This document shows positions 53,720 to 59,368 of a stretch of DNA of 64,000 nt, piece by piece. Location of the stretch: the NCBI RefSeq assembly GCF_000147875.1, contig NC_014507.1:2356001-2420000 (forward strand), given 5' to 3'. The stretch comes from Methanolacinia petrolearia DSM 11571. GTDB lineage: Archaea > Halobacteriota > Methanomicrobia > Methanomicrobiales > Methanomicrobiaceae. The notes below the pieces were generated by a model that was given only the letters and a program-made list of their open reading frames with translations, had not been told where the DNA came from and searched no databases. The position numbers were made by a program, and so were the translations under genes. Position 1 is the first letter of the stretch, and each line of letters begins with the position of its first letter.

Positions 53720-54757
53720 TTATACCAGGTGGAAGAGCGGATGTGTGTCCACCTGCGGCTCAAGACCAAACTCTTTTGCAGCCTCTGCGAGGACAATGTC
53801 GGAGAATGCAATTGCTGTTGTTGCAGCTTCACAGTTCTCGATAGGTCCGTACATGATGAGGTCTGCACCGAGTGTTGCAGCCATGATGTTACATCCGATA
53901 TCAGGTGCTGTCCATGCTGCCTGCTTTATGCCCTCAAGTCCACCGGAGTGGTGGTGGGACATCTGTTCTGCAAGAAGATCCTTTCCTTCGTACTGCTGTA
54001 AGAGCAGCGAGGGGTTCTTCTTGGATCCTCTCCAGCGTTTGAGCCAGGGCCATGATACGGTCATGTTGTGGTACGCACCACCGGTTGGGAGACCGTGGAT
54101 TGCCTTGCATGCAAGAATCTCACGGAATGAACCGCCGGAACCAAGTCCGAGAGGTGTTGCTGCAGTATCGAGGATAGGACGTGTAATTCCACACTCTTCC
54201 GCGATAGCCATCATTGACTTTTCCTGTCCAGCAACTCCACCCTGTGAAAGTACCTGCTCACGTCCCTTGACCGAGGGGTCACCGGGGTTGAATGCAAGTA
54301 CGATTGCAGCATCGACATCACTGTTCTTCAGTGCCTCGATGTTCTCCGGTCCGATTGAACCGTTGATCGAGTTGTAGATTGCACGGCTTGCAAGGCCTAC
54401 TTCAGTAACATAGCCGCAGGCATGTGCAAGTGCTGCGGGGTTTGACGAATCCATCAGGAATGCGGTCTTGTTGTCGATCGAATCAAACCACTGGAAGTAG
54501 CTCTCGAATGCCTCTGGTGTTTCAGAGATGATCTGGCAGAAGTGTGGAACTCCGCTCTGGTCGGAAAGTTCCAAACACCTGTTCCAGAGAGCCTCTGCGC
54601 GATCCTTATCAATTATGCCCTTCTCATCATCGATAACAGTCTCGTGCTTGTTATAGAAGATGGAAGCTCCGAGCACCCTCGGGTATTCTCCGGGCTGCCC
54701 TCCAATCTTGGTACCGTTAAAGTCGAGTACCGTCTGTTCTTTCTCGAATTTGAACAT
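53720..54757 (-). CDS. mtrH: Tetrahydromethanopterin S-methyltransferase subunit H
   Basis: Transfers the methyl group from methyl-H4MPT to the cobamide of MtrA; a soluble subunit bound to the membrane complex. 345 residues, TIM-barrel of the methyltransferase family. Recognisable segments are FNGTKIGGQPGEYPRVLGAS at the start, AFNPGDPSVKGR and the late ADLIMYGPIEN. Somewhat longer than the roughly 310 residues of Methanothermobacter MtrH. Last gene of the mtr operon, 14 bases after the fused mtrA-mtrG gene. Confidence 0.97.
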   Translation of the reverse strand: MFKFEKEQTVLDFNGTKIGGQPGEYPRVLGASIFYNKHETVIDDEKGIIDKDRAEALWNRCLELSDQSGVPHFCQIISETPEAFESYFQWFDSIDNKTAFLMDSSNPAALAHACGYVTEVGLASRAIYNSINGSIGPENIEALKNSDVDAAIVLAFNPGDPSVKGREQVLSQGGVAGQEKSMMAIAEECGITRPILDTAATPLGLGSGGSFREILACKAIHGLPTGGAYHNMTVSWPWLKRWRGSKKNPSLLLQQYEGKDLLAEQMSHHHSGGLEGIKQAAWTAPDIGCNIMAATLGADLIMYGPIENCEAATTAIAFSDIVLAEAAKEFGLEPQVDTHPLFHLV

Positions 54758-54771
54758 TATTTCACTCCTCC

Positions 54772-55509
54772 TTACACCAATGCCATAAGTTTTGAGAGTA
54801 ATACAATCAATATCATGAATGTAAACAATCCTGCAACAAGACCGTAGAGAATACCTATATCACGTCCGATCTTACGACCGTTACGCTGCATAAGTTCTCC
54901 TTCTACGAACTCAAGTTTTTCCTCGATTGCATTGAGACGTGCCTCAGCCTCAAGGAACTGAGGGTTGGCCGTAGCAACCGTTGCCTCGGATCCTCCTTCA
55001 GATTCCTTGACCTCTATGACCATTGCATCGCCTGCAAAGGCTCCGGGGTCTTTGCTTATGCAGTCCTGGACCTTGGCTTTTATTGCACCGAGATCCTCGG
55101 TCTCCATGATATCGATTACTTCAACCTGCTCCTGGAAGCGTTTGATTGCAGCATCATCCAAATTCTCGATGAACGGAATAGCACCCTTTGCGCCGACAAT
55201 CTTTCCGCCTTCCACACCGCCGGTGTGAAGGGCTTTTAAGCATTGCCCGGAAAGGTGTCCCTTGACTTCCGTACCGCAGGTGATCAGGAACCTGATGTTC
55301 GGGTTCGCAACCACGTTCGCTACGATCTTCTCAAGACCAAGGTTCTCGGTCTTGCATGAACCGCACAGTGCAGCACCGGCATCACAGACACCCTGTTCGT
55401 CAAGGTGCGATCCCATAGTAACTACTACAACGCAGCTGTTTGCATCGCCGGAGTGGTAGTCACCCTGGATTTTTGGCCAGCCGGAAGCGGGGGATTTCTT
55501 ATCTGCCAT
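54772..55509 (-). CDS. mtrG: MtrA-MtrG fusion: second corrinoid domain joined to subunit G
   Basis: 245 residues at the place where mtrG is expected. Residues 1-168 are an MtrA corrinoid-binding domain that differs at only about nine positions from the true MtrA encoded at 55730, and it keeps the cobalt-ligand histidine H85 (EVKGHLSGQ). After a linker, residues about 184-245 are Mtr[26 protein letters not shown] and one membrane helix (218-242). MtrG is normally a separate protein of about 70 to 85 residues. The fusion would anchor an extra cobamide domain on the complex. The original mtrG gene is not found elsewhere in the operon. Confidence 0.93.
55006..55509 (-). repeat. Direct repeat copy 1 (MtrA domain in the fusion)
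   Basis: About 504 bases that nearly match 55949-56452 at an offset of 943 bases. The two encode the same MtrA domain with about nine amino acid differences, and long stretches of the DNA are identical. The copies are a recent duplication or are kept alike by gene conversion. Confidence 0.85.
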
Positions 55510-55510
55510 C

Positions 55511-55723
55511 TCAGATACCTCCCATCAGATATACCGGAACTATTGTCAGTGCCAGCGTGATCAGGAGACCAAACATGAAACCAATGATACCTGAATCCAT
55601 TATACCTGATTCAAGCTTGTTGGTCCTTGCCAGGATCTGTCCTTTATAGCGCATGTCAGCGACCATGGCCTCGATAGCTGCTGTCCTTATTATTGTCGGA
55701 CCTGATTTCTCTTCATCTGACAT
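55511..55723 (-). CDS. mtrF: Tetrahydromethanopterin S-methyltransferase subunit F
   Basis: 70 residues with one C-terminal membrane helix (about 46-68), [16 protein letters not shown]. MtrF is a small anchor subunit of the sodium-pumping methyltransferase complex, related to the C-terminal part of MtrA. Normal size. It ends one base ahead of the MtrA-MtrG fusion start. Confidence 0.92.
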
Positions 55724-55729
55724 CTCTTA

Positions 55730-56452
55730 TCACCCCATTAACAGGAAGCCGAGAACGGCAAAAGACACGATCAGACCGATCATGAGTCCTTCTACTTTAC
55801 CTGAATAGACACCTGCTGCAAAGCGGTCCTGGAGGCCCATGCCGGTAACCTTTTCCTGGATTACCTTCATTCTGGCATGCAGGAGAGCGACTTCGGCTGT
55901 CATCGGGGCTTCCTCGCCCTCGGTCTCGCCGGCTCCGCCTTCCTCTTCCTTGACCTCAATGACCATCGCGTCGCCCTCAAAGGCTCCGGGGTCCTTGCTT
56001 ATGCATTCCTGGACCTTGGCCTTGATTGCACCGAGATCCTCGGTCTCCATAATGTCGATTAATTCGACCTGCTCCTGGAAGCGCTTGATCGCGGCATCGT
56101 TGAGATTTTCGATGAACGGAATTGCTCCCTTTGCACCGACAATCTTTCCGCCTTCCACACCGCCGGCGTGAAGGGCCTTTAAGCACTGTCCGGAAAGGTG
56201 TCCCTTGACTTCTGTACCGCAGGTGATCAGGAACCTGATGTTCGGGTTCGAAATCACGTTCGCTACGATCTTTTCCAGACCGAGATTCTCAGTCTTGCAT
56301 GAACCGCACATTGCTGCGCCGGCATCGCAGACGCCCTGCTCGTCAAGGTGTGAACCCATTGTAACTACTACAACGCAGCTGTTTGCATCGCCGGTGTGGT
56401 AGTCACCCTGGATCTTTGGCCAGCCTGAGGCCGGAGATTTTTTATCTGCCAT
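55730..56452 (-). CDS. mtrA: Tetrahydromethanopterin S-methyltransferase subunit A
   Basis: 240 residues. Carries the cobamide that takes the methyl group from MtrH and gives it to coenzyme M. The corrinoid domain (1-168) has the ligand histidine H85 in [10 protein letters not shown] charged Glu/Gly linker follows, then one membrane helix (221-239) at the C-terminus. Normal length and place in the mtr operon. A second copy of the domain is fused to mtrG downstream. Confidence 0.97.
55949..56452 (-). repeat. Direct repeat copy 2 (domain in mtrA)
   Basis: Partner of 55006-55509; it covers the first 168 codons of mtrA. Past this point the two genes diverge at once, one into the MtrA tail, the other into MtrG. 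Confidence 0.85.
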
Positions 56453-56463
56453 TTTTCTTCACC

Positions 56464-56748
56464 TCAGATCAAAGCAAATGCGAACAATCCCGCGATAAGT
56501 AGTCCAACTGCCATACCGTACCACATAGCTGTCACGCTACCGGCATACACAAGCGATTTTTCCCTGTGGGGGAAAGATGCAAGGAAATTGCCTTCTCCGG
56601 AGAGCATCCCTACGATATCATCGGCAATCTTCTCTACCTCTCCTATCTCGTCCAGAATCGGTGCAAGCGATGCTCCGGCTGTGGTTACAAGACCTACTAC
56701 CGGATCCGCTACAAGACCGAATTCCGGAAGAACTTGAATATATCCCAT
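56464..56748 (-). CDS. mtrB: Tetrahydromethanopterin S-methyltransferase subunit B
   Basis: 94 residues with a C-terminal membrane helix (about 72-92). Small anchor subunit of the Mtr complex. The start MGYIQVLPEFGLVADPVVGLV is family-like. It lies 2 bases after mtrC and 11 bases before mtrA. Confidence 0.93.
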   Translation of the reverse strand: MGYIQVLPEFGLVADPVVGLVTTAGASLAPILDEIGEVEKIADDIVGMLSGEGNFLASFPHREKSLVYAGSVTAMWYGMAVGLLIAGLFAFALI

Positions 56749-56750
56749 TT

Positions 56751-57620
56751 TCAGGCCTCCTTCTCACGAATCGGTTTTGCATCAAGCCACATGAACGCAT
56801 CACGCTTTGAGAGCTCGAAGTACTTGCGGTATGTGTACACCCATCCAATAACTGATATGATGAACGAGAGAATTGCTGAAAGGAAGCTCACGAATGCAAA
56901 GGATATGATAGATACGGTGATCATACTAAGGAACCCGCACTCTGCTGCAAGCATGAGTGTCCTGTCCTGTGACTCGTTAGGTCCGAGACATGCATTGAAT
57001 GCATGCTGAACACCTAATGCACCAAGCATAAATACGACAGCGATAACGCAGCCGCCGAGATATGACGAGGTGGTATCTAACATTACAACTCCAAAGAATG
57101 TGGTAGAACCTGACACCAGATCTGCGAACACGAATGTTCCTGTTGCCATTGCAGTAAGTCCCATGATTATGATCGCACCAACCATACAGAGTTCGGCGAG
57201 AGAAACCATGAGGACAGGAATGTTCATGTTGACGATCTTATCAGAGATGAAACCGATGATAATTCCAAGAATTGCGGCAATAATAACCGTTCCGATCGGG
57301 ATAATCAGTGGTGTGGATATGAATCCCATTGCGCTGAGCTTGCTTCCGAGAAGCATTGCAATAACTCCCGAACCGAGTGCGATCATACCTGCCGACGGAA
57401 CACCGGTACCAAGACCGTAACTGCAGAGATGCTTAATAGTATCCGTACCCCACCAGAGGGCAAGCACTGCTGCAAGTCCGCCGAAGAATGAGAACAAAGG
57501 CTGGGGCAGGTATGCGTTTACGTAGGTGAGATAAAGGCACACAATTGCTCCAATAAGTCCTATTGCAAGAACCTTGTTGTGGGGCATTCCGCCTTCAGAT
57601 GCTGTAATTGCTACTGTCAT
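56751..57620 (-). CDS. mtrC: Tetrahydromethanopterin S-methyltransferase subunit C
   Basis: 289 residues with six or more membrane segments. One of the three large membrane subunits (C, D, E) thought to form the sodium path. Its place between mtrD and mtrB, its size and family-like text such as YGLGTGVPSAGMIALGSG support the call. The N-terminus starts MTVAITASEGGMPHNKVLAIG. Confidence 0.95.
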   Translation of the reverse strand: MTVAITASEGGMPHNKVLAIGLIGAIVCLYLTYVNAYLPQPLFSFFGGLAAVLALWWGTDTIKHLCSYGLGTGVPSAGMIALGSGVIAMLLGSKLSAMGFISTPLIIPIGTVIIAAILGIIIGFISDKIVNMNIPVLMVSLAELCMVGAIIIMGLTAMATGTFVFADLVSGSTTFFGVVMLDTTSSYLGGCVIAVVFMLGALGVQHAFNACLGPNESQDRTLMLAAECGFLSMITVSIISFAFVSFLSAILSFIISVIGWVYTYRKYFELSKRDAFMWLDAKPIREKEA

Positions 57621-57631
57621 TTTTTAACACC

Positions 57632-58465
57632 TCACATTACCGCCATAATTATTGCCAGCAGTCCACAGATTGCCGAAGCCACTGCACATCCCATAATTGC
57701 ACGGGGGAATCTCTTGAACTTCGGGTCGTGCGGACCTTCGATTGTTCCCGTGATGTTGTATGCAGCGATAACCGCGTTGACAAGGAACATACCTACAGCA
57801 ATGATGCCTGCAATTCCTACTGCAATCGGAAGAACTGCTTCTGCAGATGCTCCCATAGATGCAGGAAGGAATTCCTCATAGACTCCGAGAAGCTCGACAT
57901 AGATCAGAGTCCCGCCGAGACCACCGAGACATCCTCCGATAACACCGCCTACGTAGGAGACGAACGGAAGACCGTGACCCTCGGTACCCTGTGACTTGTA
58001 GGCCTCGAACGTGTCGCCTGTAATCGGGTCCTTTGCGACCTTACCTGATGCCGCAGGTACACCCATACCCCAGACGTATACTACGTTGACCATAAGACAT
58101 GTGACTGCCATCATGAGTCCGCCGCCAATCGCTCCGCCGGCAAGTGCAACACCAAACCCGAGTTCGGCTGCCCATGCTCCTCCGAAGAGGCCTGCGAGAC
58201 CCGCACCGGCTGCAAGCATTGTAACACCGGTAGCAATACCAGGTGACTGACCCATAGCTGCAGGAGCTCCTCCGACCGGAACGAAGTGAACTCCGAATCC
58301 GATGAGAAGACCACCAACGATCACAAGTATAAGAGACGTAAATGCAAAGCCTGGTGAGATTACATACATTGCTGCAAGTGCTGCAATGAGTAAAATAATA
58401 CCAACAACGATGCCGACAGGGGTCATTCCCTCTCCGCCGCCGGATCCACCGCCAAGTGCAGACAT
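57632..58465 (-). CDS. mtrD: Tetrahydromethanopterin S-methyltransferase subunit D
   Basis: 277 residues with about seven membrane segments and glycine-rich loops (GGGSGGGEGMTP at the start, AAGAGLAGLFGGAWAAELGF). Membrane subunit of the Mtr complex, probably part of the sodium channel with C and E. The start directly follows the mtrE stop with no gap. Confidence 0.95.
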   Translation of the reverse strand: MSALGGGSGGGEGMTPVGIVVGIILLIAALAAMYVISPGFAFTSLILVIVGGLLIGFGVHFVPVGGAPAAMGQSPGIATGVTMLAAGAGLAGLFGGAWAAELGFGVALAGGAIGGGLMMAVTCLMVNVVYVWGMGVPAASGKVAKDPITGDTFEAYKSQGTEGHGLPFVSYVGGVIGGCLGGLGGTLIYVELLGVYEEFLPASMGASAEAVLPIAVGIAGIIAVGMFLVNAVIAAYNITGTIEGPHDPKFKRFPRAIMGCAVASAICGLLAIIMAVM

Positions 58466-59368
58466 TCAGGCCGCCTCCTCAGTCTTTTCCTCAGTATAAG
58501 GTCCGTATGTCTTGCGGGCCCATTTCTCAATGTACCTGTCGATTGCCATGAATACGAGAATCAGGACTATACCTGCGATAACTGCTCCCCAACCGCTTGC
58601 GAACTCTTCGAAGAAGATTGTACGCCACAGTTCGAGGAATACGATAAGTCCGAAACAGACACCGGATGCGGGGCCGCCGAGCTTGGATGTGAACCATCCA
58701 TTGTCGAGTGAACTGCGCTGTCCTGCCTCTGCGTAGCGGACAATGTTACCTGATGCCGAGATCGGTACACCTGCACCGAACTTCTGGGACTGGTACTGGC
58801 GCTCCTTGCCGTAGAACGGGTTACCTGTTGCAGAACCTGCTGCACCAAGAGCGATACCCCATACGAGACCCATGAGCGGGAGCGGGAAGGGGTGTCCGAG
58901 AGCGTTTACCATGAGGAAACACATCGTGACACATGTAAAAATAGCTACGAATGCATGTGCCATAGTCACGGTCGTAACCGACTTTATCACGTCGATATAG
59001 ACCGGCTGTTCAAATTTTGCCAGACTTGCTGTCCTTCCAAGGTATGCTGTTGTAGCATATACACCCTGGACAAATACGGCAATTGCCGATCCAAGGATAA
59101 TCGCAAGAACCGGATTATAGTTGATCGCCATGAGCGCCCATGCAAGACCTGCTCCAAGCGTAATCCAGAGTCCGTACGCGGGGGGTTCGCCGGATATAGC
59201 TTTACTGAATATACGGTGAATATAACCCATCTGCGGAGCCAGCTGAACCTGCGAGTTCGGGTCACCCTGTGAACCGATATCAGATTCAGTATCCTCCGCA
59301 GCTCCGGACACTGTCGCCAGAGCGCCTGCTATAGCACTTATACCGATGCCAAATAACAACTCTTCCAT
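58466..59368 (-). CDS. mtrE: Tetrahydromethanopterin S-methyltransferase subunit E
   Basis: 300 residues, the largest membrane subunit, with about six or seven membrane segments and a soluble basic stretch (RYIEKWARKTYG) near the end. First gene of the operon. The ATG at 59368 is preceded by AGGAGG (59377-59382) at ideal distance. Subunit E couples methyl transfer with sodium export in the complex, with an aspartate in a membrane segment as proposed in the family. Confidence 0.96.
   Translation of the reverse strand: MEELLFGIGISAIAGALATVSGAAEDTESDIGSQGDPNSQVQLAPQMGYIHRIFSKAISGEPPAYGLWITLGAGLAWALMAINYNPVLAIILGSAIAVFVQGVYATTAYLGRTASLAKFEQPVYIDVIKSVTTVTMAHAFVAIFTCVTMCFLMVNALGHPFPLPLMGLVWGIALGAAGSATGNPFYGKERQYQSQKFGAGVPISASGNIVRYAEAGQRSSLDNGWFTSKLGGPASGVCFGLIVFLELWRTIFFEEFASGWGAVIAGIVLILVFMAIDRYIEKWARKTYGPYTEEKTEEAA

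Follow-up and report, generated by a model that had tools for sequence, protein, structure and literature searches.

The gene at positions 54772 to 55509 on the minus strand of the window, by which we mean the whole 64,000-nucleotide stretch of Methanolacinia petrolearia DNA analysed here, is in our estimation (probability about 0.85) an mtrA-2b subunit that adds three further corrinoid heads to each (MtrABCDEFG)3 complex, with both kinds of head usable. Mtr carries out the sodium-pumping methyl-transfer step in most methanogens. The MtrA-MtrG fusion is real and common to the whole order Methanomicrobiales, and both it and its concerted evolution have been described before; how the fused head is used in the complex is the sharper question.

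The fused gene and the mtr operon

The open frame begins with an ATG, encodes 245 amino acids, and occupies the place of mtrG in an operon that runs on one strand in the order mtrEDCB-A1-F-(A2-G)-H. The relevant features are the following.

58466..59368, minus strand: mtrE (Pfam)
57632..58465, minus strand: mtrD (Pfam)
56751..57620, minus strand: mtrC (Pfam)
56464..56748, minus strand: mtrB (Pfam)
55730..56452, minus strand: mtrA-1, with its own anchor helix, partner in head-to-head conversion (PF04208; TIGR01111, 341 bits)
55511..55723, minus strand: mtrF (PF09472)
54772..55509, minus strand: mtrA-2/mtrG fusion gene (mtrA-2b of Wang et al. 2015), 245 aa (Pfam and NCBIfam)
55006..55509, minus strand: MtrA-type corrinoid head, residues 1-168 (PF04208, AlphaFold model)
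55255..55257, minus strand: codon of His85, lower axial cobalt ligand (alignment to solved MtrA)
55039..55053, minus strand: KDPGA, residues 153-157, the Connectase recognition site in other methanogens
54979..55005, minus strand: start of the flexible linker from head to MtrG, residues 169-177 (pLDDT)
54775..54978, minus strand: MtrG domain, residues 178-245, one long helix with a membrane segment (PF04210)
53720..54757, minus strand: mtrH (Pfam)

The fused protein matches Pfam MtrA (PF04208) over residues 4-173 with 286 bits (cut-off 25) and Pfam MtrG (PF04210) over residues 178-237 with 77.5 bits (cut-off 27), and it scores above the cut-off of both NCBIfam equivalog models, mtrA and mtrG, so that an N-terminal MtrA head stands in frame with a C-terminal MtrG, as in mtrA-2b. 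The MtrG part is complete (residues 178-240), membrane helix included, and aligns with residues 8-70 of the 72-residue M. mazei MtrG; its hydropathy peaks at 2.69 over residues 220-238, and the AlphaFold model predicts a single helix from 183 to 244. Pfam, alignment, and model agree with the initial annotation, which had described a complete MtrG with its helix joined to the head. The linker between the two parts is rich in Gly, Ala, and Glu, and residues 170-189 are modelled with low confidence (pLDDT below 50). A separate MtrG made from an internal start was considered and rejected, there being no ATG, GTG, or TTG at codons 164-192; the ATG at codon 163 lies within the head and is common among other fused copies. 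Profile searches of the whole genome, which is a single contig, gave two matches to MtrA and one to MtrG.

Within residues 1-168 the fused head differs from MtrA-1 at exactly 9 residues (20, 48, 67, 68, 96, 118, 131, 149, and 159), the initial annotation having put the number at about nine, and the corresponding DNA differs at 52 of 504 bases (89.7% identity); beyond about codon 170 the likeness to mtrA-1 is gone. The ligand histidine had also been read correctly: His85 lies within GTEVKGH and aligns with the known cobamide ligand of MtrA, His84 in Methanothermobacter and His85 in M. mazei (PMC10998594, PMC12774963). The AlphaFold model of the head matches the crystal structures 5L8X and 5LAA (TMt 0.92-0.93, rmsd 1.6-1.9). 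With its axial histidine and predicted cobamide-binding head fold, the fused head has, as judged from sequence and model, the features of an MtrA-type corrinoid protein.

Relation to known fusions and spread across the order

A second mtrA fused to mtrG was described in Methanomicrobiales by Wang et al. (2015), who named it mtrA-2b and reported that fused and unfused heads are homogenised by gene conversion (PMC4632066); mtrA reappears in a 2018 survey among the examples of concerted evolution sustained over a long time (PMC6053082). The 2015 data set included Methanoplanus petrolearius (Mpet), now Methanolacinia petrolearia (PMC4632066), and the description almost certainly drew on this very genome. 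The gene shares with mtrA-2b its domain order, its place between mtrF and mtrH, and the within-species homogenisation of its head, and it shows no difference in kind. To that study we add a larger sample and an examination of purifying selection, contact sites, the sole MtrG, and Connectase.

In Methanococcales and Methanocella a second mtrA is fused to mtrF instead (mtrA-2a), and this form is thought to be independent in origin from mtrA-2b (PMC4632066). It likewise places a second MtrA head, homogenised with mtrA-1, on a stalk subunit, but that subunit is MtrF rather than MtrG. On one Methanocella contig (L081, 5192-7470) we observed mtrA-1, the MtrA-MtrF fusion, and two separate MtrG frames before mtrH, with the mtrA-1 and MtrA-MtrF heads identical in DNA across the 495 bases compared. 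The canonical Mtr complexes of M. marburgensis (8Q3V) and M. mazei (9QTQ/9QTS) share the subunits, the fold of the head, and the MtrG helix seen here, whereas their MtrG is a separate protein of 72-86 aa and each trimer has three heads. The initial annotation had held MtrG to be separate in the known complexes, which is true of the solved 8Q3V and 9QTQ but passes over the fused form published in 2015.

Our survey of Methanomicrobiales covered 232 genomes, 179 of them with an MtrG match, and each of those 179 as tabulated has one match. Complete MtrG-bearing frames in the order are mostly 240-320 codons long, and the comparison of mtr operons that the initial annotation had called for found an identical layout with the fusion in 38 distinct operons having both genes complete, several of them from single-contig genomes. 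Outside the order but in the same phylum, the MtrG frames among the best matches listed are 73-143 codons long, not enough to hold a fusion, and separate mtrF and mtrG were found at all 30 loci fetched. In the tree the fused head sits among Methanomicrobiales MtrA.

Genuine unfused MtrG within the order was sought in genomes with short MtrG frames (G090, G060, G064, G160, and others) and rejected. The frames opened, which are part of the short frames listed, are all explained as assembly defects: they reach contig ends, N gaps (L143, L144, and L155), frameshifts, or collapsed repeats (L022/L080, L045, L088/L151, L042, and L047 being frameshifted or collapsed). The fused copies of L143 and L155 look as if they had lost part of their heads, but these stretches are N gaps, and in the MtrA-1 of L143 the missing stretch lies at a two-N join. 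At L042 (2698-4896) and L047 (3799-5903) MtrB leads directly into the fused MtrA-G gene, and a further contig from the same MAG as L047 (L091) stops inside an MtrA head after MtrB.

These defects bear on whether the fusion itself could be a chimera or a repeat collapse that joined an MtrA head to MtrG. Two near-identical heads constitute a repeat at which short-read assembly breaks, as the contig ends, N gaps, and frameshifts of the draft short MtrG frames attest, and the layout of L042 and L047, which have neither MtrA-1 nor MtrF, is most likely a repeat collapse. In the window, however, the 52 differing bases are spread along the head, so the second head is not a copy made by an assembler; the genome is one contig, the 38 distinct operons agree, and the fusion had been published in 2015 (PMC4632066). 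We reject an artefact on the differing bases and the agreeing operons, and give it almost no weight; an artefact at the repeat junction, which the initial annotation had named as grounds for abandoning its reading, is ruled out by the independent genomes.

Concerted evolution and selection on the two heads

Heads from the same genome share on average 97.7% amino acid identity, compared with approximately 79% between orthologues, and in the tree a head usually groups with the other head of its genome; the two heads of the window (L001_A1 and L001_A2) are sisters with support 100/98. An exception is Methanomicrobium (L039 and L041), in which the A1 heads and the A2 heads form separate clades, so that A1 and A2 have not converted one another since the split of these two lineages. 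Synonymous divergence between heads is 0.53 in the window, 0.82-0.91 in the Methanomicrobium pairs, and 1.18 in the Methanospirillaceae pair. Conversion between heads is recurrent and not continuous.

dN/dS between the heads is 0.05 in the window (dS 0.53), 0.11 in Methanomicrobium (dS 0.91), and 0.085 in Methanospirillaceae (dS 1.18), and such low values in diverged pairs point to purifying selection on both heads, not to copying alone. His85 is present in all 38 distinct fused copies, and 70 of the 79 invariant MtrA-1 head columns are also invariant in the fused copies, the remaining 9 each being broken in one to three genomes. Fixed differences between A2 and A1 heads were looked for and none was found; at the most variable column the two heads disagree in 8 of the 38 pairs, without a consistent direction. 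To locate differences relative to partner proteins, we took the contact segments of the AlphaFold-based model of PMC10998594, renumbered through alignment to solved MtrA. Across the three most diverged pairs (window, Methanomicrobium, and Methanospirillaceae), the modelled MtrH/MtrCDE contact segments contain 2 of the 58 head differences, compared with 10.5 expected by chance (P 0.0005). Orthologous MtrA-1 heads also spare these segments, which hold 10.9% of their differences against 18% of sites, so the depletion in head pairs, which exceeds that of orthologues by a modest margin, reflects ordinary MtrA constraint and nothing special to head pairs. By the measure of selection on its sequence, the fused head is functional.

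A different account would have MtrG require the fusion for its expression or placement and carry along a non-catalytic head that is kept by conversion alone. Conversion could by itself hold the heads similar, and in one Methanospirillaceae fused copy (L066) residues 153-157 read KDTDA in place of KDPGA; the MtrA-1 of the same genome retains RDPGA. Where conversion has lapsed, however (dS 0.5-1.2), dN/dS remains 0.05-0.12, and the diverged heads keep both the ligand and the contact segments, which leaves this account unlikely.

Less probable still, and in our view very unlikely, is post-translational cleavage of the fused protein, whether at KDPGA by Connectase or through some other protease, into a free head and a normal MtrG. 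KDPGA is a Connectase site and stands at the end of both heads of the window; in other methanogens Connectase cuts and rejoins MtrA at this motif, which links the head and the membrane part (PMC10154401). Yet a search of the whole genome for Connectase (PF09894) gave no match, and a match is present in no more than 48 of the 135 Methanomicrobiales genomes with good coverage. The reaction is, moreover, reversible (PMC10154401), so that Connectase, which both cleaves and religates, would be more apt to swap heads than to set them free. Such exchange between the two stalk anchors could occur in principle, but is unlikely here given that no Connectase gene was found in the genome. Nearly every MtrA copy has [KR]DPGA despite the sparse distribution of Connectase, which suggests that the motif is retained for the head itself.

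Stalk architecture and the number of heads

In the solved Mtr the stalk comprises three MtrA anchors and three MtrG helices together with MtrB and MtrF, with all N-termini cytoplasmic, those of MtrG and the MtrA anchor included, and the MtrA head rides on a disordered Gly/Glu linker, which is proposed to let it move back and forth between MtrH and the cavity of MtrCDE (PMC10998594). By analogy with these structures, the MtrG half of the fusion would take the normal place of MtrG as three long helices in the central stalk. As the fusion is the only MtrG of the genome, each stalk should hold fused heads, and three further corrinoid heads on flexible linkers would stand beside the three MtrA-1 heads of each (MtrABCDEFG)3, their linkers similar in composition to the normal MtrA linker and attached to the same stalk. 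The complex thus most likely has six heads per trimer where the solved complexes have three, as far as gene content indicates, and the earlier proposal of two MtrA-type heads per protomer set was a sound one for the same reason, the fusion being the sole source of MtrG. A point against six heads is that the solved complexes have no fusion, and a search of the proteomics literature found no protein evidence for the fusion as an uncut, cobamide-bound, and stoichiometric subunit.

Both heads keep the cobalt ligand and the modelled contacts with MtrH and MtrCDE, and on this conservation either should serve, taking up a methyl group at MtrH and delivering it to coenzyme M at the MtrCDE globe. Recurrent gene conversion, a pattern seen here and in the 2015 study, keeps the heads nearly identical, presumably to let both match a shared set of partners. 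With only three MtrCDE globes, the second head at each may wait idle. That all six heads of a trimer are active, two per globe, is a somewhat less than even proposition on sequence grounds; it would be an architecture absent from any solved Mtr structure. Were it so, the two heads could alternate, one being methylated at MtrH while the other delivers at the globe. The second set of heads might raise the rate, serve as a cobamide reserve, or protect the cavity. The initial annotation had suggested faster methyl transfer or a balanced sodium pump as benefits; the sequence speaks neither for nor against these. The window adds support for a fusion already published and sharpens the question of its use, and is not a discovery. 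A naturally occurring Mtr with twice the number of heads would put to the test whether their shuttling is rate-limiting.
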